DNA of 64,000 nt from Candidatus Schekmanbacteria bacterium. Its GTDB lineage: Bacteria > CSSED10-310 > JACPHN01. The notes beneath the pieces are model-generated. The model saw nothing but the letters and a program-made list of their open reading frames with translations, was not told the origin of the DNA and ran no database searches. A program made the translations under genes and the position numbers. The stretch spans positions 1-64,000 of the forward strand of contig JACPHN010000092.1 of the NCBI GenBank assembly GCA_016188575.1, given 5' to 3'. Positions 40,018 through 53,474 of this stretch are shown piece by piece; the stretch's first letter is position 1; every line of letters starts with the position of its first letter.

Positions 40018-43000
40018 ATGGCTTTCAGCACGTACGATCAGGAACTGGACGCGTTTGCGGATCAACGGTCGCCCGTGCCGGGTCTGCCGTACCATAGTGC
40101 GCATCGCCGGGCCACTCTCCCGGTCGCGATCGATGGATACCGGATAACGCGCGAGCTTGGCCGGGGCGGCGCCTGTGTGGTGTATTTGGTGAAGGATGAT
40201 GTGGGCAATCCGTTCGCCTTGAAGATCCCGTACCCGGCGGCGAAGAAGCCTCGCACGATTGGCCGGCTCCTCGAACGTGAAGTGAGGCTCCAGCAAGCGC
40301 TGGATCATCCCGGCATCGCGAAAATCGTGCTCGTGGGCGCGGTTGGCGAGCTCCCGTACCTGCTGCTCGAATACGCGGATGGTGGCGACCTGGCGCACCT
40401 GTGGGAGCATCGCAAGGCGATGCGCACGACGGGGGAACGGATCATCGAGGCGCTGAAGCTGCTCGACCAGGTCGCGGGCGCGATCGCATACGCCCACGAG
40501 CACGGCGTCCTCCACCGCGACATCAAGGCGCGAAACATCCTGGTAGTGGGCGGCGAGCTCAAGGTGAGCGACTTCGGTCTTGCGGTGGCGATGGCTGGAG
40601 ACGAGGTGATGCACTCACGCACGGCGACGCGAGACAGGATGGGCACGCTCGGGTACATGGCGCCGGAGCTGGAGATCAGCGCCAAGAACGCGACGGTGGC
40701 ATCGGACGTGTATGCGCTGGGGGCGATGGTGTACTGGATGGTGACAGATGTGGTGCCATGGGCGGACGACCCGGACTGGTCGCACCGCCCGCTGCTGAGC
40801 ACGCTGCTGGGTGAGCACGCGGAGTCGCGCGTGCACGCAGTGGTCGAGGAGACTTTCCTGGGGTGGATCGCGGAGAAACCCCAACGTCGACCGGCCAGCG
40901 TGGCGGTCATGCGGGAGCAGATCGCGACGCTGTTGCGTCTCGGGACAGCGGGTGTGCTGCGGAGCAACTCGGCGTCGGCGTCGATGCTGGCGGAACCGGT
41001 CGCGACGCCGGAAATGCCGATCGTCGCGGCCAGGTCCGAACGCCAGGTCCAGGTGAGAACAGACCCGCGGGTGATCCTGGTGCCGGAGCTCGTGGCACAC
41101 CGTGGTCGGATCGGGCCGGTAGCGGTGGAATCGTTCATTGGGCAGGGCGGCTTCGGGCAAGTGTTCCGCGGACAGTGGCAGGGCCAGCAAGTTGCGGTCA
41201 AGCTCGTGCCCGAGACCGACGACCGCGCCGCCGCACGGTTCCGTGACGAGATGCGCACGCTGTCGAGCTTCCAGCACCCCAACATCGTCCGCATGCTCGA
41301 CGTCGTCCACGACCCCGACCTCGGCGCCGTCGGACTCGTCATGGAGTATCTGCCGCACACCCTCACGGATTGGTTACAAAACGCCTCCGCTTCGTTCGAC
41401 GAGCGCGTTGAAATGGTCTGTCGGATCGCCAGTGGCCTGGACTATCTTCATTCCGCGGGCATGTTTCACTTCGATCTGAAGCCGGACAACATCCTCGTGC
41501 GAGAGGACGGGAGTCCGGCCATTGCCGACTTTGGTCTTGCCGCACGAGCCAGGGATGCTGCGCGGCATGGTGGAACCGTTACTTACATGGCGCCTGAGAT
41601 GCTGGCACGGGTGCGGTCTGACTTGGCCGAGCGTTATCCGGACTTGGCCACGGCGCCGCTCGATGAACGCGCGGATCTGTTCGGGCTCGGCGCGATCGCC
41701 TTTGAGATCTTCACAGGGCGCACGCCCTTCGTCGCCGACGATTGGGCGATGCGCTTCGCGTGGCGCGCGGATCTGGAAGCCGCCATCGGTGTACCGTTCG
41801 ATGTGCAGCCCACGATTTTCCGCCTCTTGTCCTCCCAGCCGAGCGCACGACCGCGCAGTGCCGTCGAGGTCGTGGCGGCCTTGCGACCTGATGAACCGTA
41901 TCCGACCCAGGCCGAAGCCCTGCGTCGGTGTCATCGCCCACCGCGCACCGACACGGCGGATGCTTGGCTGCGCACGCTTGCTTCCGATGTCGCGACGACC
42001 GTCGCGCCCGCGACCGTGCTGTTGCAGGGGCCGCGTTGGAGCGGCCGAACCCGGCTCTTGAGTGACCTTGTCGACCTGCTGCGCCTGGAACATGGCCTGT
42101 CCGCGGTTTGGGTTGACAGCGACATCGAGGGCGCGTCGATTCTCGCCGTCGATGATTTCGATTGCCTGGAGCCAGCGCGGCTCGATGCCCTGGCGAGCCA
42201 TCGCGGCGTGTTGCTGGGGGCGATAGCACATGATCCGGACGTCTCGCGTCTTGAGACCCACGGGAGCACCGTGCGCATCATACCGTTGCCCGCGTTCGAC
42301 ACGCGTGATGCCGCAGGCTTGCTCAGCGCGCTCTTGGGGCGAGTCGAGATGCTGGAGCAAACCGCCGCGCATCTCGTACGCGAGTCGGGAAGCCGCCCCG
42401 GCCTGTTCATGAGCCTACTACGTGGACTGATAAAAATCGGCGCCGTGACGCTGACGCCTACACCGTCCTGGAACGTCGATCTTGACCGTCTCGATGAAGC
42501 GACCGCGCGCCAGGCTAGCATGGTCGAGGCGCATCGGCAGTTGTTGGCAAATGTCGATGCCGACGGGCTGCGTTTGTTGGGCTACCTGGCCTGCGCAAAC
42601 GCGTCCATTGCGGTTGGTGTGCTGGCCAGGCTGCTTGCAAGGTCCGAGGGCGAGGTGCGCGAGCTCGCCAGGCAACAGCAGGCATGGGTGTCGGAGCCTC
42701 AGCATGGTGCGCTGGCACTTTACAATGGTTTTGTCCGGCTCCTGCTTCGACAGACGGCGCCAGCCGGGGTCTCGATGCGGGCGTTTGCGATGGAAATCGA
42801 GCCCACGAACCCGCACGAGGCCTGGCGGATCTGGCTTCGCGATACGGACGACCTGGCGCGAACGCAGGCGGGACGACTCGGGGCGCTTCTGGTCCAAGAC
42901 GATTGGAACGTCCCCGAGCTGTCACCCTATGCCACGCGAGATCTCGTGGAGCGCATGGAGGCCAACGCCTTGTGGTTGAGCAACCGCGATCGCGCCCTGG

Positions 43001-44424
43001 GCCTCGTGCAACTTGCCTGTGCCGTGCGCCGCATCGTGGGCATGAAAGCGCGCGGCGTGGCGACCATGTTGGCGCCGGCAGTGGAAATCGCAGCCGGGCT
43101 CGGTGATCCTGAGCTCGAAGCTGCGGTGATGGCCGCTCGGGCTCTGTGCGAGGAAGAAACGCCGGCAGCGGAGCGGATCGCCTGTGCGTTGCGCTGTCAG
43201 CAGCTCGCGGAGACATGCGGCCAAGCGAACCTGCGTTTTCTTGGCCAGCTTGCTGAAGGCAAGGTGCGTTGTTACCACACGGCCGATGCGGATGCGGCGG
43301 AAGCGGCATTCCAGGCGCGCTGGCTGGCGTTTGGGGAGGTGTGGAGGCTGCCGCCGGGCATTCTGTACGAGCTCTTTGTCTTTGCTTCCCGTCACGTGCT
43401 TGCCGGTGCGATCCTCGTGCACGTACAGCAGTGCTGTGCCAACCAGGCGGCAAGCGCTTCACGGCCATATCTGAGACTTGCGCTTCTCGAGCTCGAAGCT
43501 GCCGTTGCTCGTGCGCGCTTGCAGTTTGCCCCAGCGAGCGAGAAATACGCGCTCATTTCGGCAGAGTCCCTGCGGCTGCGCATGATGGCCGCGTGGCCGA
43601 TCGCATCCAACGCTGCCTCTGGCATGGCGGCGTTTACAGGAAACATGAGCACGGCCCTGCGACATGCCAATGCGGTGATGCGCAGCGGCATCGACCTGGG
43701 ACGGCGGCGGGCATCCCACTTGATGCAGCTCGCTGAATTTCACCGGCTTTGTGGACGGTATTCCCAGGCGCTCGCTTTTGTGAACGCGGCCGTGGCGGCT
43801 GCGGACCCCCGTTTCCGAGCCAACCACCTGGCGGTGCGGTGTTTGCTGCTCACCGATCTTGGCATGGATACTCGCGAGGAGCTCGCGGACGTGCTCGCGC
43901 AAGCGCAGACCGAGGATAACCGTTGCCTGGTCCGTTTCGCACTGGCCCGCGCGTGGTTGGCCCAAGGGCAAACCAGGGAAGCCGATGAGTGGGGACGGCA
44001 GTGCGTTGAAAGCAAGGTGGGTCCTGGTTCCGATTTACGGCATACAGCTCACACGGTAGCGGCGCGCGCGGCAGCGCGGTGTTACCTCGAAACAGCGGAT
44101 GGCCTACACCGGCGGCGCGCGCTCGCGTACTTGAACGAAGTGCCCCGCGATTGCCATCGCTGGACGCCGGTTCGCTTGCTCGTTGAAGCGCGCGTCGCCG
44201 ACACCTCAGCCGAAAGCACTGCATTCGCGAGAGAAGCCCTCGATGTTGCCTTGCGCACGGGGATGTACGCCTTCGCCCTCGAAGCTATCGCTCTGTTGCA
44301 GGAAAGTGCGACAGCATGCGAATATGACGGCTTGGTCGATCGCTTATTGCAATTGTGTTTAGAAGGTCTCAGTGATACAATGAAGCAAAGTTTCATGAAC
44401 CACTGGAGAAACTTATGCGTTTGA
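40018..44424 (+). CDS. Two-kinase / STAND-like NTPase / helical-repeat regulator
   Basis: 1468 aa. Two full Ser/Thr kinase domains in tandem. Kinase 1 (~40-300): GRGGACVVY, ALK, HRDIKARN, DFG, GYMAPE. Kinase 2 (~365-640): GQGGFGQVF, AVK, HFDLKPDN (HRD Arg replaced by Phe, so non-RD), ADFG, TYMAPE. Next is an AAA/STAND-like module: Walker A GPRWSGRT (~674-681; Arg for the usual Lys) and Walker B ILAVDDFD. The C-terminal half is helical, TPR-like (ALAFVNAAVAAADPR, DEWGRQCVESK). The layout recalls PknK-type kinases but with an extra kinase. No TM helix is evident. Its 3' end overlaps the next gene by 10 bp, implying coupled translation. Confidence 0.88.
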   Translation: MAFSTYDQELDAFADQRSPVPGLPYHSAHRRATLPVAIDGYRITRELGRGGACVVYLVKDDVGNPFALKIPYPAAKKPRTIGRLLEREVRLQQALDHPGIAKIVLVGAVGELPYLLLEYADGGDLAHLWEHRKAMRTTGERIIEALKLLDQVAGAIAYAHEHGVLHRDIKARNILVVGGELKVSDFGLAVAMAGDEVMHSRTATRDRMGTLGYMAPELEISAKNATVASDVYALGAMVYWMVTDVVPWADDPDWSHRPLLSTLLGEHAESRVHAVVEETFLGWIAEKPQRRPASVAVMREQIATLLRLGTAGVLRSNSASASMLAEPVATPEMPIVAARSERQVQVRTDPRVILVPELVAHRGRIGPVAVESFIGQGGFGQVFRGQWQGQQVAVKLVPETDDRAAARFRDEMRTLSSFQHPNIVRMLDVVHDPDLGAVGLVMEYLPHTLTDWLQNASASFDERVEMVCRIASGLDYLHSAGMFHFDLKPDNILVREDGSPAIADFGLAARARDAARHGGTVTYMAPEMLARVRSDLAERYPDLATAPLDERADLFGLGAIAFEIFTGRTPFVADDWAMRFAWRADLEAAIGVPFDVQPTIFRLLSSQPSARPRSAVEVVAALRPDEPYPTQAEALRRCHRPPRTDTADAWLRTLASDVATTVAPATVLLQGPRWSGRTRLLSDLVDLLRLEHGLSAVWVDSDIEGASILAVDDFDCLEPARLDALASHRGVLLGAIAHDPDVSRLETHGSTVRIIPLPAFDTRDAAGLLSALLGRVEMLEQTAAHLVRESGSRPGLFMSLLRGLIKIGAVTLTPTPSWNVDLDRLDEATARQASMVEAHRQLLANVDADGLRLLGYLACANASIAVGVLARLLARSEGEVRELARQQQAWVSEPQHGALALYNGFVRLLLRQTAPAGVSMRAFAMEIEPTNPHEAWRIWLRDTDDLARTQAGRLGALLVQDDWNVPELSPYATRDLVERMEANALWLSNRDRALGLVQLACAVRRIVGMKARGVATMLAPAVEIAAGLGDPELEAAVMAARALCEEETPAAERIACALRCQQLAETCGQANLRFLGQLAEGKVRCYHTADADAAEAAFQARWLAFGEVWRLPPGILYELFVFASRHVLAGAILVHVQQCCANQAASASRPYLRLALLELEAAVARARLQFAPASEKYALISAESLRLRMMAAWPIASNAASGMAAFTGNMSTALRHANAVMRSGIDLGRRRASHLMQLAEFHRLCGRYSQALAFVNAAVAAADPRFRANHLAVRCLLLTDLGMDTREELADVLAQAQTEDNRCLVRFALARAWLAQGQTREADEWGRQCVESKVGPGSDLRHTAHTVAARAAARCYLETADGLHRRRALAYLNEVPRDCHRWTPVRLLVEARVADTSAESTAFAREALDVALRTGMYAFALEAIALLQESATACEYDGLVDRLLQLCLEGLSDTMKQSFMNHWRNLCV

Positions 44425-45815
44425 AGTGGACCATTCTATACGCGCTCGTGCTGTTGTCCGCCGGCAGAGCCAATGCCACCGGCTCGGTGACCGCCGAGGC
44501 CGATCAACTTCTCGGTATTGCTCAGTTGCGCGCCGAAACCGGTCTGACCGGCAAAGGCGTAAAGGTGGCGGTCATTGGTCCAGGCATCACGGATTGGCAA
44601 GAACGCGTTGCGAGCGGCGATCTTCCATCGGATCTTTGGCTGATCGATGACTACGCGGGAACGGATTACCGAACGCTTGGCGTCATCGAGACCATTCACG
44701 ACCTGGCGCCGGAGGCCACGTTGATGTTCGGTGCTCTGGTAAATGCACTCGGGGCGGTTCCCCAAGCTCTGGCTGCGGGCGCCGACATCATTGTTGCGAC
44801 GGATGATGTGCCATTCTTGTCCGTTTTCGAGGACGAACCGCGTAACAAAGCATTTCAGGACGCTGCGCAGGGAGGCACTTTGGTGATCGCGCCGGCGGGG
44901 AACTTCGGCGTTGGCCACTACCGGGGCACGTTCAAGGATGCTGGCGACAATCATCACGACTTCGGAAGTGGAGTAACACGCATTCCGATCACAGTGCCGG
45001 CGCTGCGCGAGCCCGTCATTAACCTTAACTGGGCTGAAGACGTTTACACCAACGCGTTCAGCAATTACGTCTTACGCGTCTATACAGCTACTGGCGAGTG
45101 GATTGGGGATTACGGAGGTGCCGGGGCTTTTGCCAGCGTAGCTGTTCAGTATGCCGATCAAACTAACGATTACGGCTTGCTGCTGAGTGTCTGGCGAGAG
45201 CCTGGTGCGCCGGACTTGCCATTTGATTTGTTTGTCCAAGGCTGGCCGTGGCCAGTTTCAGCAGATCCACCGCAACTGGATGCGTTGTACCAAGTCGCAC
45301 GCGGTTCAATTGCTGGCATTGGTGCGTTGCCGGAGGTGTTTACCGTAGGCGCTCTCGATCAAACAAAGGTTATCGATGTACCCAACAATATATATGCCAT
45401 ACGGGATTATTCGAGCCATGGACCTGCCGAAGTGTTATTGGCGTCACCTGTGAATCGACAGAAACCAGATCTCATGGCTCCTGACTGCCAAACGGGTTAC
45501 GGCGGAACGCCTTGGTGCGGCGCTGCGATTAGCGCAGGTGTCGTTGGTGGCGTCGCAGCGCTTCTCCAGCAAAAGTACCATTTCGAGCGCACGATCGACA
45601 TGAAGCAGCAGCTCACGAGTACCGCAGACGATCTCGGCGCGACGGGATACGACTACGAAACGGGGTACGGGCAAATTAATCCAAGAGCTGCGCTCACGGA
45701 TCCGCTGGTACCAGTTCGGCCAGTTGCTTTATTTGTTCTTCTGGTATTATTCGTCGTACTATTTCCTCACGTTAAACCCAAATTTTTCGTATCTGATATC
45801 AAGCAGCTCATTTGA
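44415..45815 (+). CDS. Catalytically dead subtilisin-fold membrane protein
   Basis: 466 aa. Signal peptide ~5-22, C-terminal TM helix (~430-450) with a short cytoplasmic tail. The fold of S8 peptidases is clear (GLTGKGVKVAVIGPGI, ETIHDLAPEATLMFG, VIAPAGNFG, KPDLMAPD), but every catalytic position is changed. The Asp strand, usually VxxxDTG or LSDG, reads VIGPG (53-57). The His segment is YRTLGVIETIHDL, with no His or Glu at the expected place. The Ser motif GTSxxxP is GAAISAG with Ala371. The oxyanion Asn (PAGN) remains. A binding or sensor role for the overlapping kinase is inference. The DNA is visibly AT-richer than flanking genes. Confidence 0.8.
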   Translation: MRLKWTILYALVLLSAGRANATGSVTAEADQLLGIAQLRAETGLTGKGVKVAVIGPGITDWQERVASGDLPSDLWLIDDYAGTDYRTLGVIETIHDLAPEATLMFGALVNALGAVPQALAAGADIIVATDDVPFLSVFEDEPRNKAFQDAAQGGTLVIAPAGNFGVGHYRGTFKDAGDNHHDFGSGVTRIPITVPALREPVINLNWAEDVYTNAFSNYVLRVYTATGEWIGDYGGAGAFASVAVQYADQTNDYGLLLSVWREPGAPDLPFDLFVQGWPWPVSADPPQLDALYQVARGSIAGIGALPEVFTVGALDQTKVIDVPNNIYAIRDYSSHGPAEVLLASPVNRQKPDLMAPDCQTGYGGTPWCGAAISAGVVGGVAALLQQKYHFERTIDMKQQLTSTADDLGATGYDYETGYGQINPRAALTDPLVPVRPVALFVLLVLFVVLFPHVKPKFFVSDIKQLI

Positions 45816-46730
45816 TATCAGGGTGACGCGCTGTTGGATATTAAGGTCAGTACCAATACATGCCGCTGTTATTGGATTGCCATACTGGTCCAGTTTAGGA
45901 CAATCGGGATATGGGTCGTTTTCCCATTCCGTGCATGACCGTACAGTCCACCCGGCGACAGATTTACCCGTTGTTTGCCATGTAAACGTGAGTTGGTCCC
46001 ACAGCTTTGGATTCACAGGATCGATGTGGAAAACGTGGTAGTTGGCGTGAAGCTGCCCGCATTGCGTTTGCGTTTCATCGCTGCACATTTGGTCCGGATT
46101 GTCGTACGGTCCTTCAAATGGTAACTTTACCGTATAGCCGCTCGATCCAAGAAAATTCTCGAAGCCGAACGGTGTCGTCACGTTTGGATATTCCGGGCTG
46201 CTGAAGCTAGAAGCCCTGTACGCGAGCATGCGATATCGTGCATTCGAAATCCCAGGCCTCAGGACCACGTCGATTGTAAGAGAAGATTGGCTAGCACGCC
46301 GCACCGCGAACCCTAGTTTTGCGGCGTACGTGTGGTTGAAAACCCACTTGATTCCGTCCCAAGCATCGCACGAATGATCTGCTGTAACTTTCCCCGCGAT
46401 CACAAAGTAAGGCTTTGTGCTACTATACTGCGTACCTGTTAGCTTTACATACCCGAAGTTGTCCGTAGTATAGGCTCCCTTGTAGGACGCGTGATCGTAC
46501 ACGAGCACTGGGCAGCCGACGCAGGCTTGGCTTCCATCCACCACCCGAACAGTTGCGATCGAGGAAACGGCCATCGTGGAAACGTCGGTCGTCCGGCTGG
46601 CCTGGGTGGCCATGTTCTGTTCGACCTTGGTCCGCCGAGCCAAATGCTCCCACTTCCCAGGCACCAACGCGTCTGCCTGTCCCGCTGTCCATGCCATGAA
46701 CAGCGCTACCATTGCCGCCAACTTCTTCAC
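45759..46730 (-). CDS. Secreted protein of unknown function
   Basis: 323 aa. Signal peptide ~1-20 (VKKLAAMVALFMAWTAGQADA). The middle reads like a Cys-containing beta domain (VRVVDGSQACVGCPVLVYDHASYKGAYTTDNFGYVKLTG), possibly a carboxypeptidase-regulatory-like or Ig-like module; the rest is unrecognised, with several Cys pairs. GTG 46730 follows GGAGG at ideal distance and overlaps the upstream stop (GTGA). The gene is AT-rich for this genome. Its 3' end overlaps the pseudo-subtilisin gene tail to tail by 57 bp. Confidence 0.65.
   Translation of the reverse strand: MKKLAAMVALFMAWTAGQADALVPGKWEHLARRTKVEQNMATQASRTTDVSTMAVSSIATVRVVDGSQACVGCPVLVYDHASYKGAYTTDNFGYVKLTGTQYSSTKPYFVIAGKVTADHSCDAWDGIKWVFNHTYAAKLGFAVRRASQSSLTIDVVLRPGISNARYRMLAYRASSFSSPEYPNVTTPFGFENFLGSSGYTVKLPFEGPYDNPDQMCSDETQTQCGQLHANYHVFHIDPVNPKLWDQLTFTWQTTGKSVAGWTVRSCTEWENDPYPDCPKLDQYGNPITAACIGTDLNIQQRVTLISNELLDIRYEKFGFNVRK
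45793..45821. terminator. Perfect hairpin at the convergent gene ends
   Basis: CTGATATCA (45793-45801), 11-nt loop, TGATATCAG (45813-45821). The right arm begins with the TGA stop of the pseudo-subtilisin gene, and the hairpin lies inside the last 63 bp of the opposing gene. It may end transcription from the plus strand; no T-run follows. Confidence 0.45.
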
Positions 46731-47533
46731 TTGCCATCCTCCGTTGTGATGCGACGTGCCAGGGCGATGAGGTCTGCCGCTCTGGCGGGTTCGATCCGCC
46801 CCAAGAACTGGGCGGCGTTGATGATGATCCCCGGATCCTCTGGAGACGCTTGCAAATGCGTCTCCCAAATGGCGATTGCCTGCTCATAGTCCTGCACGCC
46901 GTCACTTTCGATCAGCGAGGCGAAGCTCGTACCCGCGATAGGCAACTGTGGGAAGCGCTCGAACAATTCCAATATATGCGCGTTTCGGCGCGTCCATCGC
47001 GGCATTTCGCTGTCCGCGTGGGCGGCGTAATAACCGAGAGCGCGAATGCGTGGAGCAGGATCGTCTGGTTTGGCGCCGATCGCGGCTTCTTCGGCGCGGA
47101 ACGTCGCGGCGTCCATCCGGGCGCCTTCGCTGGCGATGGCCTCGAAGCGTTCGCGCTCGTCGCGCTGCAGCTCGTACGCCGCAAGCAAGACTTGTTCGAG
47201 GATCGCGGCATCGCGCTGCCGCTCGTTGTGAGCACGGATGTTCGGGTCTTCCTCGATGGCATCAGGCGCGGCCACCGGATGGTCTGTACTGCGCGTGGCT
47301 GGATGTGCTGGTGCCACGGATGTCGCCGGAGCCAGGGCGCGGCTCTCGAGGCCAGTCTTCAGTTGGCGTGCGGGGCTCTCGGGGAGCTCCGCGGATGCGC
47401 GGACCGACTGGAGGCGCTGAGGTTGGGCATCCGGGACTGCCTGGATCCCGTGGGGGGCCATCCAGTGGATCGCTCCGAGGATGACGGCGATGGCGGTGGT
47501 GAGGCTGGCGATGGCAAGGCGTGGGTATGACAT
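46727..47533 (-). CDS. Membrane-anchored helical (TPR-like) protein
   Basis: 268 aa. One N-terminal TM helix (~7-27, LAIASLTTAIAVILGAIHWM), an Ala/Pro-rich spacer, then helices with TPR-like spacing (ILEQVLLAAYELQRDERERF, VQDYEQAIAIWETHLQASPEDPGIIINAAQFLG). Its stop overlaps the GTG start of the secreted protein gene, so they form a two-gene unit opposing the kinase pair. ATG 47551 is an alternative start. No clear ribosome-binding site is seen. Confidence 0.6.
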   Translation of the reverse strand: MSYPRLAIASLTTAIAVILGAIHWMAPHGIQAVPDAQPQRLQSVRASAELPESPARQLKTGLESRALAPATSVAPAHPATRSTDHPVAAPDAIEEDPNIRAHNERQRDAAILEQVLLAAYELQRDERERFEAIASEGARMDAATFRAEEAAIGAKPDDPAPRIRALGYYAAHADSEMPRWTRRNAHILELFERFPQLPIAGTSFASLIESDGVQDYEQAIAIWETHLQASPEDPGIIINAAQFLGRIEPARAADLIALARRITTEDGK

Positions 47534-47843
47534 GCTGGTGTCAAGATGCAAGAATCATGCCCTTGTTATCATCCCAATCCATGCCTCTATTGCGCGGCTG
47601 TCTTCCAAGTATGGCAACCGCCACGTGTGATGTCAAGGTTACACCTGGACACGGATGTCCCATATCTTGGTCTATCCATCCAAGAACGGCGCCGGGGCCT
47701 AGCGCGGACCGAATCGCGGCCCGGCGTTTTCCCCGGCACCAGAAAAGTCCAGGAAGAAACTCACGTTGCGAGGTCGTCCGTTTCATCCGGCGCGGGGTGC
47801 GACCTCCCCTCGGTCCCAAGGAGAGGTCGCTAATCAGGCGCGC
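47534..47843. other. Intergenic region with hairpin after the large protease gene
   Basis: No gene is supportable. GCGACCTCCCCT (47799-47810) and AGGAGAGGTCGC (47819-47830) form a 12-bp stem with one mismatch, 14 bp beyond the protease stop at 47844; a terminator role is plausible although no T-run follows. Confidence 0.45.
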
Positions 47844-50800
47844 CTATTCCTGGCGCTTCCGGACCCGCTTCAGCCCTGCTCCAAGACCGGCCAACAGCAT
47901 CAACAGGCCGGCGCCGCCGCTGACGGGGACCCGCGTCGCACCGCCTGCCGCCACGACGATGCGGCTCTCTCCCTGCGCTTGCTCATTCCATGCGGCGTAC
48001 ACCGTGCCGACCGTGTCGATGGCCATGTCCGGCAGCAGGTTGGCGGCCTCCGCCCTCCTGCTTACCCGGCTGCTCGAGCCAAAGCTCTGCCCGGCGTCGA
48101 GGCTGACCGCTGCGTCTATCGCCACCTGACCTTCACCCGACACGCTGCTCCAGGCCACATAAATGTGCCCGTTGCGACCCGCCAGCGAGGGGTGTCCGGT
48201 GCCCGTGGTGCCCTGCCCGAGCGTCAGCCGCGGCCAAAAGCTCGCGCCGCCATCGGTGCTGCGCCGGTAATTCACACCAGTCGAGCCGGCGCCGGCCGCG
48301 GCTGCCCAGGCGACATGCACCTGGCCGAGGCGATCGACGAGGACCGCAGGAGCCGTCGTGTCGACCGCCCAATCCGCCGCGAATGTGTCCGTCTCCTCGC
48401 TGATCCGGACGTTCGCCTCGAAGCTCAGGCCGAAATCGCGGCTGACAGCGGCGTGCACGTCTCCCCCACCGAATCGCTCATCTTGCCAGGCGACGAAGAT
48501 GGCGCCGTCCGGAGCGACGTCGATCGCCGGGAACTTCTGCCGCACGCCGCCGATCCCGTCGTCGTTGAGACGCACGTTCGCCTCAAAGCTGCTGCCACCG
48601 TCGCGGCTACGGGCGAAGTAGATATCGGGGTCCCCGTAACGGTAGTCGTGCCAGGCGACCAGTGGCCATCCGGACGGGCTCACCACCACTGCCGGAGATG
48701 CCTGCCAGACGGCGGCCGTCCCCGTGTCGTCGACGCGCGTGGAATCGTCGAAAGCGACCGCCCCCGGCACGAGGCGGGCGGCGTAGATGTCCGGATTGCC
48801 GGATCGCTGGTCTTGCCAGACGACGTGCACGGTCCCGTCGGGAGACACGGCGATATCCGGTTGGAGCTGATCTTCGCCACTGCCGGCAGCGTCGTCGACG
48901 GGGATTCCGGCGGCGAAGGTCAGGCCGTGATCCAGACTGCGGGCGTAGTAGACGCGCGCGGGGGCGGCTCGCCGGTCCTCCCAGACGATGTGCACAATGC
49001 CGTCGCCGCCGACCGCGACGGCGGACCGGTTCGGAGCGTCTCCAAGCCCCGCCTCCCCGGTCACCTCGGTGGCATCGCCGAATCCCGCATCGCCGCCGCT
49101 CTGGCCATCCGATGCGATGTGGATCTGCGCCGTCTCGATCACGCCCAGGTCCCAGCCGACGAGATCGCAAACGTGCAGCAACCAGATGCCGCTCGCGGGC
49201 TCGTCATTGAAGTCGTCCAGGCCACCCGGGCCGCTCGGTACGAGCGTCAAATCGAAATTCCCGGCGACGTCGCCGCCGTCTTGCCAACTGAGATCCCACA
49301 GGCGCACGGTGGTCTGGCGGGGCGAGATGAGATCGACGGTCAGATCGGAAGTGAAGGGGTGGCGGATGACGACGTCGAGATTGAGGTCGGTCACCCGACC
49401 GCTGGCGTCGACCGGCAGCGCACAGTAGGCGCCGTTCGCTGACCCATCGGGGATCTCCACCGCAGCTTCGCCGCAGATCGGCATGTCGGCGGCCACGCTG
49501 AAATGAACGGCAGGGCTCGCCTCCCCGGTTCCACATCCATTGATCGCGAAAACTCTGAAGTAGTAGGAGCCTGCTTCCAGCGAGTCGACGGTCAGATCGG
49601 GGTTGGCGACCTCATGATCGCGCACGATTTGCTGGAATCCGGAATCTCCGGCGATCTGCAGTCGATATGAGGTGGCATTGCTGACGCTGTACCAGGCGAA
49701 AAACGCGGGCACGGGTAAGAGGATGGCACCATCTTGGGGATCGTAGGGTGTGGGGGTTTCGGTGATCGGCGCGCTGACAACCACGGGAATCGTGCCGTCG
49801 ATGGCGAAATTTCCCGCGACCGTCTTGATGCCGGCGCTGTAGGCGCCTGGTTCGGCACCATCATCGATGGTAAGCGGCAGATCCGCCGTCCCGGGGACGC
49901 TGACAGTAACGGGTCCCTGGCCGCCGCCGGTGACGACTCCGCTGCCGGGCCGCAGCGCGACCGTGGCGTTCCCGGAATAGCCGTTGAGCGTGGATACGAC
50001 CACGTGGGCCACGGACGATTCTCCAGGGCATGCGGCGACCTCGGCCTGCGCGACCGCCTTGACCGCGGGCCGGGTGGTGCCGGTCAACGTGAGCTCGAGC
50101 TCGTCGATGACGCCATCATCCGCGGCTTCCGTGTCGAGCGCCGAAAACCACCACAGGCCGCGGGAGCTCTGGCCAATGAAATCGTCCATCTCTCCAGGTC
50201 CGTCAACCGCCAACGTGTCGTCAAAGCTGCCCACCATCGCAGTCGACGTGTGGTTGTGCAGAATCACGGCATCCTGGTCCGGATCGGGTGCGGCGAGCGA
50301 GAGCTCGAGGTCGGAGGGCCAGTCATGCTCGATTGCCACGGCGAGCTCGACGTCCGTGACCGCGTAGTCGGCCTCGACCTCGAAGGAGCACGTGGCAGGG
50401 CCGCCCGGTGTGTCCGGAATCGCCAGGGGCAGCACGGGACAAGCGATGACCGTCCGGGCGGCCGTCTCGAAGGGTTGCGCGTCCGAGCTTTCCCCGTCGC
50501 CACAGGAGTTACGGCCACCAACGCGCCAGTAGTAGATCTTCTCGCCGTCGAGGGCGGGCAGGCGTAGCGAGGTCGCCGCGGTGAGCTCGTCCAGGACGAT
50601 GTCCGAGAGCTCGGCGTCCCGGGCAAGCTGGACGCGGTACAGATCCGCGGATTCGAGCGCGCTCCAGAAGAGCTCGCTTCTCGGAGGAACGGCGATCTGT
50701 CCGGCAAACGGGACCAGCAAGGAGGTTCCGGCCAGTTTTTCGTCGACGCGCACCGACACCGAGACGAAGCGCTGAAGCTCACCCGAAGTCCCGCGGATCG

Positions 50801-53474
50801 TCAGCTCGTGGGGCCCGACCGGCGCACCAGCGGCAATGCTCAGGGCCATCACGGTGTTCGCCGGCGGCGATACCGCGGCCGCGAGATCTACGGTCATAAA
50901 GGATGGGAGATCGACGACTTCCAGCGCCACGGTCTCGTCGAATCCACTGATTTGGCCCACCGTCAGCGCGAACGCGAGCTCGCCGGAGCCGCAGATGAGC
51001 CGCTGGTCATCGTCGGCCGCAAGGTAGAAACCGGGTGCCTGGCTGACATTATAAGCGACCAGCGCAAAGTCTTGATCGGTGGCGTCGGCGTTTTGCGGGA
51101 CGCCGTCGCCGGCGATGGCGGCCGCGACGACGCGAATCCGCACGCCGCCCATGACGCCGGCGGGGAGGTAGACGGCCTCGAAGTTGTTCGCGCGATCGCT
51201 GTCGCCGCCGGGGGAGCTCCAGGGCCCCGCAAAGTGGTTGCCGCGGTAGAGCTCACCATCGACGAAGACCTCGAGATCGAGATCGTTCACTTGCGGGTCG
51301 GCATAGGCGGCCCCCGGCGCGTCCGTCCAGGTCAGCACAATGCGGGTCGGGCGATCGTTCTCGGCGGTCCCACCGAAGACCTCCCAGGAGCCGCCGGTCT
51401 CCCCGAGCGTGACGCTCTGGTCGACGACGATGCGCGCGGCTTCGTCGAAGGCGGCACCGAGGTCGGGTAGCCCGAGGCCCTGGTTGTTGCTCGGGAGGTC
51501 ATCGGTGGCGTCGACACCGGAAATCGACCGCGTGTGCGCCAGCAAGTAGGCCTTGACCGCCGCCGGGCTCGGGTCGGCACCTCCCGTGTGGTGCGTGCGC
51601 AGCCAGTAGTGCAGCAGCGAGGATGCGCCGGCAACCGCCGGCGTCGAGTGACTGGTGCCGGAGGACAGGGCGAGCTCGGATTGACCCGCGGGAAAGTAGG
51701 CGTCACACACGGAGTACCCGGTATAGGCGGGAGCGGTGCTGGCAGTGCCCTGGATGTGCGTGCCCGGCGCAACGATTTCGGGCTTCACCCGGTCGCCACC
51801 GGCCGGGCCACGGCTGGAGAAGTGGATGATGTCCTGCAGATTATCCGCCCCCTCGGTGCCGACACCGCAGCCGTCGACAAAGCCGGGTCGCGGATTTTCG
51901 GAGGCGCCCACGGAGATGACGTTTTTCGCCGTCGCGGGGCTGCCGACGGTCGCCGGCCCTGGACCCGAGTTTCCCGCGGCGAAGACAAACAACATCTGCT
52001 GATTGCCGGCGGAATCCGGCAAGGCGTCGCGTGCCCCTGCATCATACGCCTGGGCAATGGCGTCGTACTCGCCATAGGCATCGGCGCCCCAGCTATTGGA
52101 GCTGATGCGCGCGCCGTTGGCGTAGACCGCAGCGATCAACGCGGCATCACTGCCGTCGCCACAGCTCCCGGTATTCCAGGAGCCCAAGTCGCCGAAAACT
52201 CGGGTCCCAGCAAGCCGGGTGAAGGGGTTCACGCCGAGAGCGCGCGCAAAGCCGTTGTCGTCCTGAAAGGGGGCCCCACTGCGCTCGTCGTAGCCGCCCA
52301 CGATGCTCGCGTTGATGTGACCGTGGCCATCGAGCCCGTGCGGCCCGTCTCCCGTGCAGTCCCCGAGATAGGCAACGCGCGTCGCCCATGCGGCGTTTCC
52401 GCCTTCGTGCAGCGTCGGATCACCGGTGTCGAGCGTGCCGTCGCCGATACCATCGTCGACCACGTCCACGATCGGGTAGTCGGCAGGATTCGCGCTCACG
52501 CCGTGATCGCGCAACCAGTCGAGGTAGCCGGGGCCGGCGGGCGATGCCGCGCCGGCAGTGAAGTTGCCGGCCACGACCTGGTCCTGAATTTCGTCCAGCC
52601 TGCGCCGCGGCGCGGCCCGGTCGACCCAGACGACATCGGGAACGGCGAGCAGCTCGGTCAGGCTGGAGGCCGCGAGGCGAATCGTCGCATTCTCGTACTG
52701 TTGGACTCGCCACCAGCGCTGCAGATAGGTCGCGCCGGCGCGACGCAGCAGGCGCGAGAGCACCCCGCGGTCGCTGCCCGCGTAACGCTGGACGTTCAGC
52801 GTCAGCGCGGCGCCAGCGCCGGACTTTTCGCGCGCCTCGCCCACCAAGGCCGCGGCCGCCTTGTAGAACGGGTGGTATGCGCCCACGTATTGCAGCGGCG
52901 AGCGGTCCTGGTGAAAAAGGTCGACGAGCTTCGCGAGCGCACCAGGTGGTGCCCAGACGAGGTAGCCGTTGGCCGGAAAGGGTTGGATGAGAGCAATGCC
53001 GCAATCGCGCAGTGCCTGGAGCCAGCGGTCTTGCGGGGGGCCGACGAGCTGCACGAGATAAAGTCCCGCGGTCGCGGTGTGGGGCGCGGTGAGGGCGGGC
53101 GGAATGGGCGGAAAGGAGCTCGTGGGAGCCGTTTCGAGGGTCGCCGCGTGCAGGTGCAGGACATCGAGCTCGCCGGGCGCTGAGAGCCGAGGCGCGCGGC
53201 TCGGGTCGGCTGCCGCGGCGGCGGTCTCGATCAGGTCGAAGGCGCCGTAGTGGGCAAGCACGGCGAAATCGGCCGTGTCGGAGGCGTTGGAGAGCGCGGG
53301 AACAAGCGCCCGCTCGCCGTGCGCGGGCCGGCGCAGGCCCGCTGTCGGCAGCTCCGGATTCGCGGCCGCGGCCGCCAGATCGGCAACCGCGAGCGCCAAT
53401 ATCCCCGCCATGGTCATGACGCGCGGTGCAACCGCGCGACGTCGAGGTATCTGTCCAGAATGGGTAGACATCAT
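47844..53474 (-). CDS. Giant secreted subtilisin with P-domains, FN3-like and sialidase-like repeats
   Basis: 1876 aa. Start follows AAAAGGAG. Signal peptide ~20-38. A long prodomain precedes the S8 catalytic domain with Asp in IVDVVDDGIGDG (~333), His in DGHGHINASIVGG (~380) and Ser in SSGTSHSTPAVAG (~606). Then beta-sandwich domains: two proprotein-convertase P-like units (AVEIEHD-like ... SRGLWWFSALD and VVIRHPFTSDLTVDL ... ASGIWLLHVCD), two FN3-like units and a C-terminal region of about seven sialidase/BNR-like repeats (PDIAVSPDGTVHVVWQD, PAIDVAPDGAIFVAWQD). The tail, VPVSGGAGLLMLLAGLGAG then a basic end, resembles PEP-CTERM-type sorting signals. No sortase gene is in the window. Confidence 0.9.
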   Translation of the reverse strand: MMSTHSGQIPRRRAVAPRVMTMAGILALAVADLAAAAANPELPTAGLRRPAHGERALVPALSNASDTADFAVLAHYGAFDLIETAAAAADPSRAPRLSAPGELDVLHLHAATLETAPTSSFPPIPPALTAPHTATAGLYLVQLVGPPQDRWLQALRDCGIALIQPFPANGYLVWAPPGALAKLVDLFHQDRSPLQYVGAYHPFYKAAAALVGEAREKSGAGAALTLNVQRYAGSDRGVLSRLLRRAGATYLQRWWRVQQYENATIRLAASSLTELLAVPDVVWVDRAAPRRRLDEIQDQVVAGNFTAGAASPAGPGYLDWLRDHGVSANPADYPIVDVVDDGIGDGTLDTGDPTLHEGGNAAWATRVAYLGDCTGDGPHGLDGHGHINASIVGGYDERSGAPFQDDNGFARALGVNPFTRLAGTRVFGDLGSWNTGSCGDGSDAALIAAVYANGARISSNSWGADAYGEYDAIAQAYDAGARDALPDSAGNQQMLFVFAAGNSGPGPATVGSPATAKNVISVGASENPRPGFVDGCGVGTEGADNLQDIIHFSSRGPAGGDRVKPEIVAPGTHIQGTASTAPAYTGYSVCDAYFPAGQSELALSSGTSHSTPAVAGASSLLHYWLRTHHTGGADPSPAAVKAYLLAHTRSISGVDATDDLPSNNQGLGLPDLGAAFDEAARIVVDQSVTLGETGGSWEVFGGTAENDRPTRIVLTWTDAPGAAYADPQVNDLDLEVFVDGELYRGNHFAGPWSSPGGDSDRANNFEAVYLPAGVMGGVRIRVVAAAIAGDGVPQNADATDQDFALVAYNVSQAPGFYLAADDDQRLICGSGELAFALTVGQISGFDETVALEVVDLPSFMTVDLAAAVSPPANTVMALSIAAGAPVGPHELTIRGTSGELQRFVSVSVRVDEKLAGTSLLVPFAGQIAVPPRSELFWSALESADLYRVQLARDAELSDIVLDELTAATSLRLPALDGEKIYYWRVGGRNSCGDGESSDAQPFETAARTVIACPVLPLAIPDTPGGPATCSFEVEADYAVTDVELAVAIEHDWPSDLELSLAAPDPDQDAVILHNHTSTAMVGSFDDTLAVDGPGEMDDFIGQSSRGLWWFSALDTEAADDGVIDELELTLTGTTRPAVKAVAQAEVAACPGESSVAHVVVSTLNGYSGNATVALRPGSGVVTGGGQGPVTVSVPGTADLPLTIDDGAEPGAYSAGIKTVAGNFAIDGTIPVVVSAPITETPTPYDPQDGAILLPVPAFFAWYSVSNATSYRLQIAGDSGFQQIVRDHEVANPDLTVDSLEAGSYYFRVFAINGCGTGEASPAVHFSVAADMPICGEAAVEIPDGSANGAYCALPVDASGRVTDLNLDVVIRHPFTSDLTVDLISPRQTTVRLWDLSWQDGGDVAGNFDLTLVPSGPGGLDDFNDEPASGIWLLHVCDLVGWDLGVIETAQIHIASDGQSGGDAGFGDATEVTGEAGLGDAPNRSAVAVGGDGIVHIVWEDRRAAPARVYYARSLDHGLTFAAGIPVDDAAGSGEDQLQPDIAVSPDGTVHVVWQDQRSGNPDIYAARLVPGAVAFDDSTRVDDTGTAAVWQASPAVVVSPSGWPLVAWHDYRYGDPDIYFARSRDGGSSFEANVRLNDDGIGGVRQKFPAIDVAPDGAIFVAWQDERFGGGDVHAAVSRDFGLSFEANVRISEETDTFAADWAVDTTAPAVLVDRLGQVHVAWAAAAGAGSTGVNYRRSTDGGASFWPRLTLGQGTTGTGHPSLAGRNGHIYVAWSSVSGEGQVAIDAAVSLDAGQSFGSSSRVSRRAEAANLLPDMAIDTVGTVYAAWNEQAQGESRIVVAAGGATRVPVSGGAGLLMLLAGLGAGLKRVRKRQE

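Follow-up and report, generated by a model that had tools for sequence, protein, structure and literature searches.

A dead subtilase encoded beside a two-kinase regulator belongs to a multicopy, mosaic gene module in a Candidatus Schekmanbacteria genome

The window analysed here is a stretch of 64,000 nucleotides on contig C217 of a Candidatus Schekmanbacteria MAG (9.2 Mb in 275 contigs; 93.8% complete, 3.7% contaminated). Four of its genes form two convergent pairs. The plus strand encodes a regulator of 1468 amino acids (40018..44424), with two kinase domains, a P-loop (STAND/AAA_16-like) NTPase domain and a TPR region, and, overlapping it by 10 bp, a subtilase of 466 amino acids without catalytic motifs (44415..45815). 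The minus strand encodes a protein of 268 amino acids with an N-terminal membrane anchor and a weak TPR-like signal (46727..47533; Pfam scan and hydropathy), and a secreted protein of 323 amino acids that starts with GTG and belongs to no known family (45759..46730). The sequence GTGA is common to these two genes. The pairs meet tail to tail, with a 3' overlap of 57 bp. All four genes are real and, like the three overlaps, lie where the original prediction had placed them.

The arrangement is not confined to the window. Complete cores of kinase, subtilase and secreted-protein genes are scattered over eight places in the genome, namely the window (W) and contigs C98, C153, C207, C85, C110, C253 and C224. 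Seven full relatives of the subtilase, with 35-44% identity, are encoded in its own genome, besides a shortened one on C252, and every full copy sits directly downstream of a kinase/P-loop/TPR gene. Order and orientation are the same for all four genes at C98, C153 and C207, and for the first three at C85, C110, C253 and C224. Because it is found eight times in the genome, the arrangement of the window exceeds chance. Homologues of the genes do co-occur, and the suggestion that the four belong together is borne out by the recurrence of the set. The kinase and subtilase genes overlap in all eight copies (by 4, 10, 19 or 28 bp). In seven of them, the 3' ends of the subtilase and secreted-protein genes overlap as well, C85 having a gap of 146 bp instead. 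The subtilase reading frame is open in every complete copy, and dN/dS (NG86) is 0.11-0.35 in nearly all module genes compared. For five copies, the contig measures 7-16 kb and breaks off within the kinase gene.

Two further copies, on C252 and C52, are broken. On C252, the subtilase is interrupted after about 50 amino acids by the end of an element that we take, by its end motif, to be IS21-like. The same end is present at contig ends of C252 (L017:3750-3890), C224 (L015:1-140) and C98 (L009:19564-19687). C52 (L168:1-2700, minus strand) carries the remnant of a module with the alpha type of kinase 1, a domain that is mostly deleted there, and the start of a beta-type kinase follows immediately downstream, as though a module had been placed inside a second one.

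In the regulator of the window, Pfam detects two Pkinase domains (271.9 bits), and TPR_5 below its cut-off. Both kinase domains contain the K, HxD and DFG motifs of Hanks-type Ser/Thr kinases, with HFD replacing HRD in the second. The NTPase domain has a Walker A-like motif, GPRWSGRT (42028..42051), and does not reach the cut-off of the AAA_16 profile. This cut-off (32.6) is exceeded by the paralogues on C224 (32.9) and C253 (37.1), and the C85 paralogue has a weak nSTAND5 match. The paralogues lend some support to the originally proposed "STAND" label, the window copy itself contributing the P-loop motif only. Hydropathy reveals no convincing transmembrane segment in the kinase protein, so a signal link, if there is any, would have to run through another part, such as the subtilase tail. 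The genome as a whole yields some 70 kinase matches with E values of 1e-20 or better, and the neighbours of the kinase genes that were read are varied.

The window subtilase is recognised by the PF00082 profile (26.5 bits against a cut-off of 21.8), and the C224 copy falls just under the cut-off (19.8 bits). Most named relatives carry the motifs ISDGVD, GDEGTAMLEIVHDIAPGA, AGN and GTSAAAPH. All eight own copies have lost ISDGVD, the DEGT/HGT part of GDEGTAMLEIVHDIAPGA and the APH of GTSAAAPH. Of the Asp-His-Ser triad, the Asp and His/Glu motifs are thus missing throughout, and the Ser is lost in four copies: it is present in C98, C207, C153 and C253, but replaced by Ala in the window, C85 and C224, and by Trp in C110. 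In the window protein, G55 (in VIGPG) occupies the canonical Asp site, there is no His/Glu motif, A370/A371 are found at the Ser site, and the oxyanion Asn (N163) is retained. In view of the lost catalytic motifs, we call the protein a dead subtilase (pseudoprotease) and not a peptidase. As dN/dS between copies is 0.11-0.28 (NG86), it is maintained, and by this measure it is kept under purifying selection. The "dead subtilisin" of the original prediction is therefore a real pseudo-enzyme.

The subtilisin fold, with a beta insertion, is retained in a structure model of the protein (pLDDT 65), which matches a subtilisin over 236 residues (VIA Z 23.6, rmsd 3.2). Foldseek ranks CspA, CspB and CspC as the best matches, with 13-15% identity in the structural matches. 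The N-terminus of the window protein resembles a signal peptide, and the tails of all eight copies contain VP followed by a hydrophobic stretch, with a basic end in several. From the tails and the hydropathy, the dead subtilase is predicted to be exported and tail-anchored. A neighbouring subtilase of 1876 amino acids (47844-53474, minus strand), which is absent from the sets of the other copies, has intact D, H and S motifs, and its VP/hydrophobic/basic tail resembles those of the dead subtilases. The genome contains one exosortase-like gene.

A profile of the secreted proteins finds one of them facing the subtilase at all eight loci, C85 included. Since the protein has neither a Pfam or NCBIfam match nor a convincing PDB match, it is likely to represent a new family; its structure model is not confident (pLDDT 36.6). 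Among the eight complete copies, the membrane TPR gene is present only in the window and at C98, C153 and C207. In its first 79 codons, dN/dS between the window and C98 is near 1 (NG86).

The copies differ in how their parts are combined. Kinase domain 1 (40138..40962 in the window) exists in two very different types, alpha in the window and C98 (89% amino acid identity) and beta in C207, C153, C253 and C224 (80-92%), with 20-26% identity between types. C110 and C252 match beta DNA as well. From the C-lobe of kinase 2 onward, the copies fall into C98/C153/C207/C252, C253/C224/C110, W and C85. In C98, the first part, as far as kinase 2, resembles W, the core resembles C153, and the sequence is W-like once more between the midpoint of the TPR gene and a position some 117 bp upstream of this gene; similarity of its outer ends to the window is 83-98% on the left and 75-84% on the right. 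The left breakpoint lies in the N-lobe of kinase 2, an island (41104..41360) with 58-93% amino acid identity among six comparable copies, where the W-like similarity stops at about 41348. The right breakpoint lies in a block (47265..47650) that comprises the 5' half of the TPR gene and the roughly 117 bp upstream, and is 79.5% identical to C98.

Tree tests reject the grouping of C98 with C153 for kinase 1 (AU p 2e-83) and of C98 with W for the core (AU p 4.5e-5), so that a single history for kinase 1 and the core is rejected. The distances of the TPR half of the kinase protein, the subtilase and the secreted protein agree closely (Mantel r 0.94-0.97, p 0.0002-0.0004; seven copies), which does not by itself show contact, because the core genes are linked. 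Kinase 1 distances agree with no part of the core (Mantel r -0.04 to 0.08; six copies). The dS (NG86) of kinase 1 is 0.11-0.27 between copies, and that of the core is 0.71 for even the close pair C98/C153. By these comparisons, the kinase 1 types have been swapped independently of the remaining module. An assembly chimera is an unlikely source of C98, as its exact matches, at most 90 nt to W (inside kinase 1) and 35 nt to C153, are shorter than the contig-end overlaps of about 120 nt. A search for terminal inverted repeats at the module ends gave only a chance-level match (16 points).

The original prediction noted a fall in base composition from about 44 to 46.7 kb and proposed an acquired module. 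The fall is real: the GC content of 44415-46730 is 54.8%, versus 66.7% for the window, and the lowest value elsewhere in the window at that length is 61.7%. The dip spans the subtilase and secreted-protein genes, after which GC rises to 64.8% in the TPR gene. Across the module copies, GC3 is 0.57-0.79 in subtilase and secreted-protein genes, versus 0.74-0.86 in kinase and TPR genes; the values of the C85, C224 and C253 subtilases overlap with the kinase range. Because lowered values are common among exported genes in other copies as well, the dip is no evidence for one acquisition and is, by codon composition, a trend among the exported genes of the family. A plasmid search gave no match. Together with the low GC3 of the exported genes in the other copies, this led us to reject a recent single acquisition as stated. 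Carriage by viruses was also rejected, as viral contigs yielded a single distant relative of the subtilase (25% identity) but no copy of the module. The block is a local multigene family, and "acquired" is not supported in the form proposed.

Among 386 genomes searched, including 7 others of the same phylum, the kinase core and the secreted family were found in their own genome only. The parent S8 subtilases, which belong to the same family by sequence (ISDGVD / GDEGTAMLEIVHDIAPGA / GTSAAAPH) but keep the GTS motif, are widespread in archaea and bacteria (25-35% identity; best 80 of 429 relatives). At these 80 loci, no homologue of the kinase, secreted or TPR protein adjoins the subtilase, and kinase genes are found near it in three cases, never adjacent. 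Tree building with the relatives puts all eight own subtilases in one clade (bootstrap 89). The pairing of kinase and subtilase is conserved at the eight loci of its own genome, but not beside the best 80 of 429 relatives elsewhere. A search of the available literature found no relevant paper on a kinase and dead-subtilase pair or on this gene set.

As to function, we lean, tentatively, towards a diversified family of sensors, in which an exported pseudoprotease and its secreted partner would act as the receptor for a cytoplasmic kinase. The dead subtilase, exported and anchored by its C-terminal tail, would form an envelope receptor together with its secreted partner, joined in four copies by the membrane TPR protein. 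Such a receptor would bind a ligand rather than cut it. The signal might perhaps reach the regulator at its C-terminal TPR/NTPase half, by way of the pseudoprotease tail, and from there both kinase domains. Between copies, the receptor core would have diversified, and kinase 1, as the output end, would be drawn from two interchangeable types, so that many signals could feed few output channels. An envelope-sensing role, as originally proposed, seems reasonable, since the subtilase is a genuine pseudo-enzyme that purifying selection maintains.

On the sensing side, the module appears to resemble the Csp proteins. CspC and CspA are subtilisin-like pseudoproteases that sense germinants in Clostridioides difficile spores (PMC12880746). 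The dead subtilase has a similar fold, has likewise lost catalytic residues, and finds its best Foldseek matches there. Unlike the Csp proteins, it is multicopy and has a kinase partner, a putative tail anchor and a secreted partner; its neighbours are genes for the kinase, the secreted protein and the TPR protein, and not those of a cspBAC context. On the output side, the module seems closest to Hanks kinase / AAA_16 or STAND / TPR regulators, with which it shares the domain order, but from which it differs by its two kinase domains, the overlapping dead subtilase and the cassette exchange. The defining context of neither group is present. To our knowledge, the spore-germination Csp proteins are the dead-subtilase sensors that have been established experimentally. 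If the dead subtilase tied to the two-kinase regulator is a sensor, it would be a second, independent case. The cassette exchange amounts to a natural domain-swap experiment, indicating which parts interchange and which travel together.

It is possible, though rather doubtful, that the module is a recognition system of constant and variable parts, in which diversified receptor cores, made up of the pseudoprotease, its secreted partner and the TPR half of the kinase protein, would be swapped as cassettes between loci and plugged into one of the two kinase types, so that recombination would maintain and reshuffle a sensor repertoire. Somewhat less probable is a role in conflict or self/non-self recognition, with variable cores that detect invaders or neighbours and a kinase/STAND half that triggers a response at the level of the cell. 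Such a role would account for the expanded paralogues with a variable core and a common output end, and for the P-loop/STAND-like NTPase with TPR. The diversifying NTP-dependent conflict systems described in 2020 also combine an NTPase with variable, often inactive parts, and occur in several copies per genome (PMC7159879). However, their vWA-MoxR cores are absent here: Pfam scans show no vWA, MoxR, VMAP or EAD domain in the proteins of the module, and no toxin, nuclease, protease or pore effector was recognised in the module. PADLOC matches are generic kinase-domain matches, and the exported parts point to an outside signal.

Alternatively, the dead subtilase could help, in a structural or chaperone role, to export or assemble the secreted protein, with the kinase regulating expression only. 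Mycosins (MycP) in type VII secretion have a structural as well as a proteolytic role. Like them, the subtilase appears to be tail-anchored, its best NCBIfam match is mycosin (TIGR03921), and a secreted partner is present in all complete copies. However, the match reaches 59.3 bits, far under the equivalog cut-off of 278.75, the catalytic motifs are lost, and the module contains neither ESX nor other secretion-system genes, all of which makes this explanation improbable. It is very unlikely that the copies are a decaying or selfish gene family that does nothing for the cell and multiplied through duplication and insertion elements: the remnant on C52, the copy cut on C252 and the several copies that end at repeats would fit, but open subtilase frames and operon overlaps are kept in all eight copies, and dN/dS is low in nearly all genes, the start of the TPR gene in the window and C98 being the exception.

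Finally, that the subtilase is still an active protease with a non-canonical site is scarcely credible, as the loss of the Asp, Glu/His and APH motifs in all eight copies and Ala or Trp at the Ser site in four outweigh the Ser at the GTS position of the other four and the Glu that the parent family already has for the subtilisin His. In most parent subtilases (L057-L136), the site of the subtilisin HGTH, with its His, reads GDEG, and this widespread family may perhaps operate with a sedolisin-like triad.
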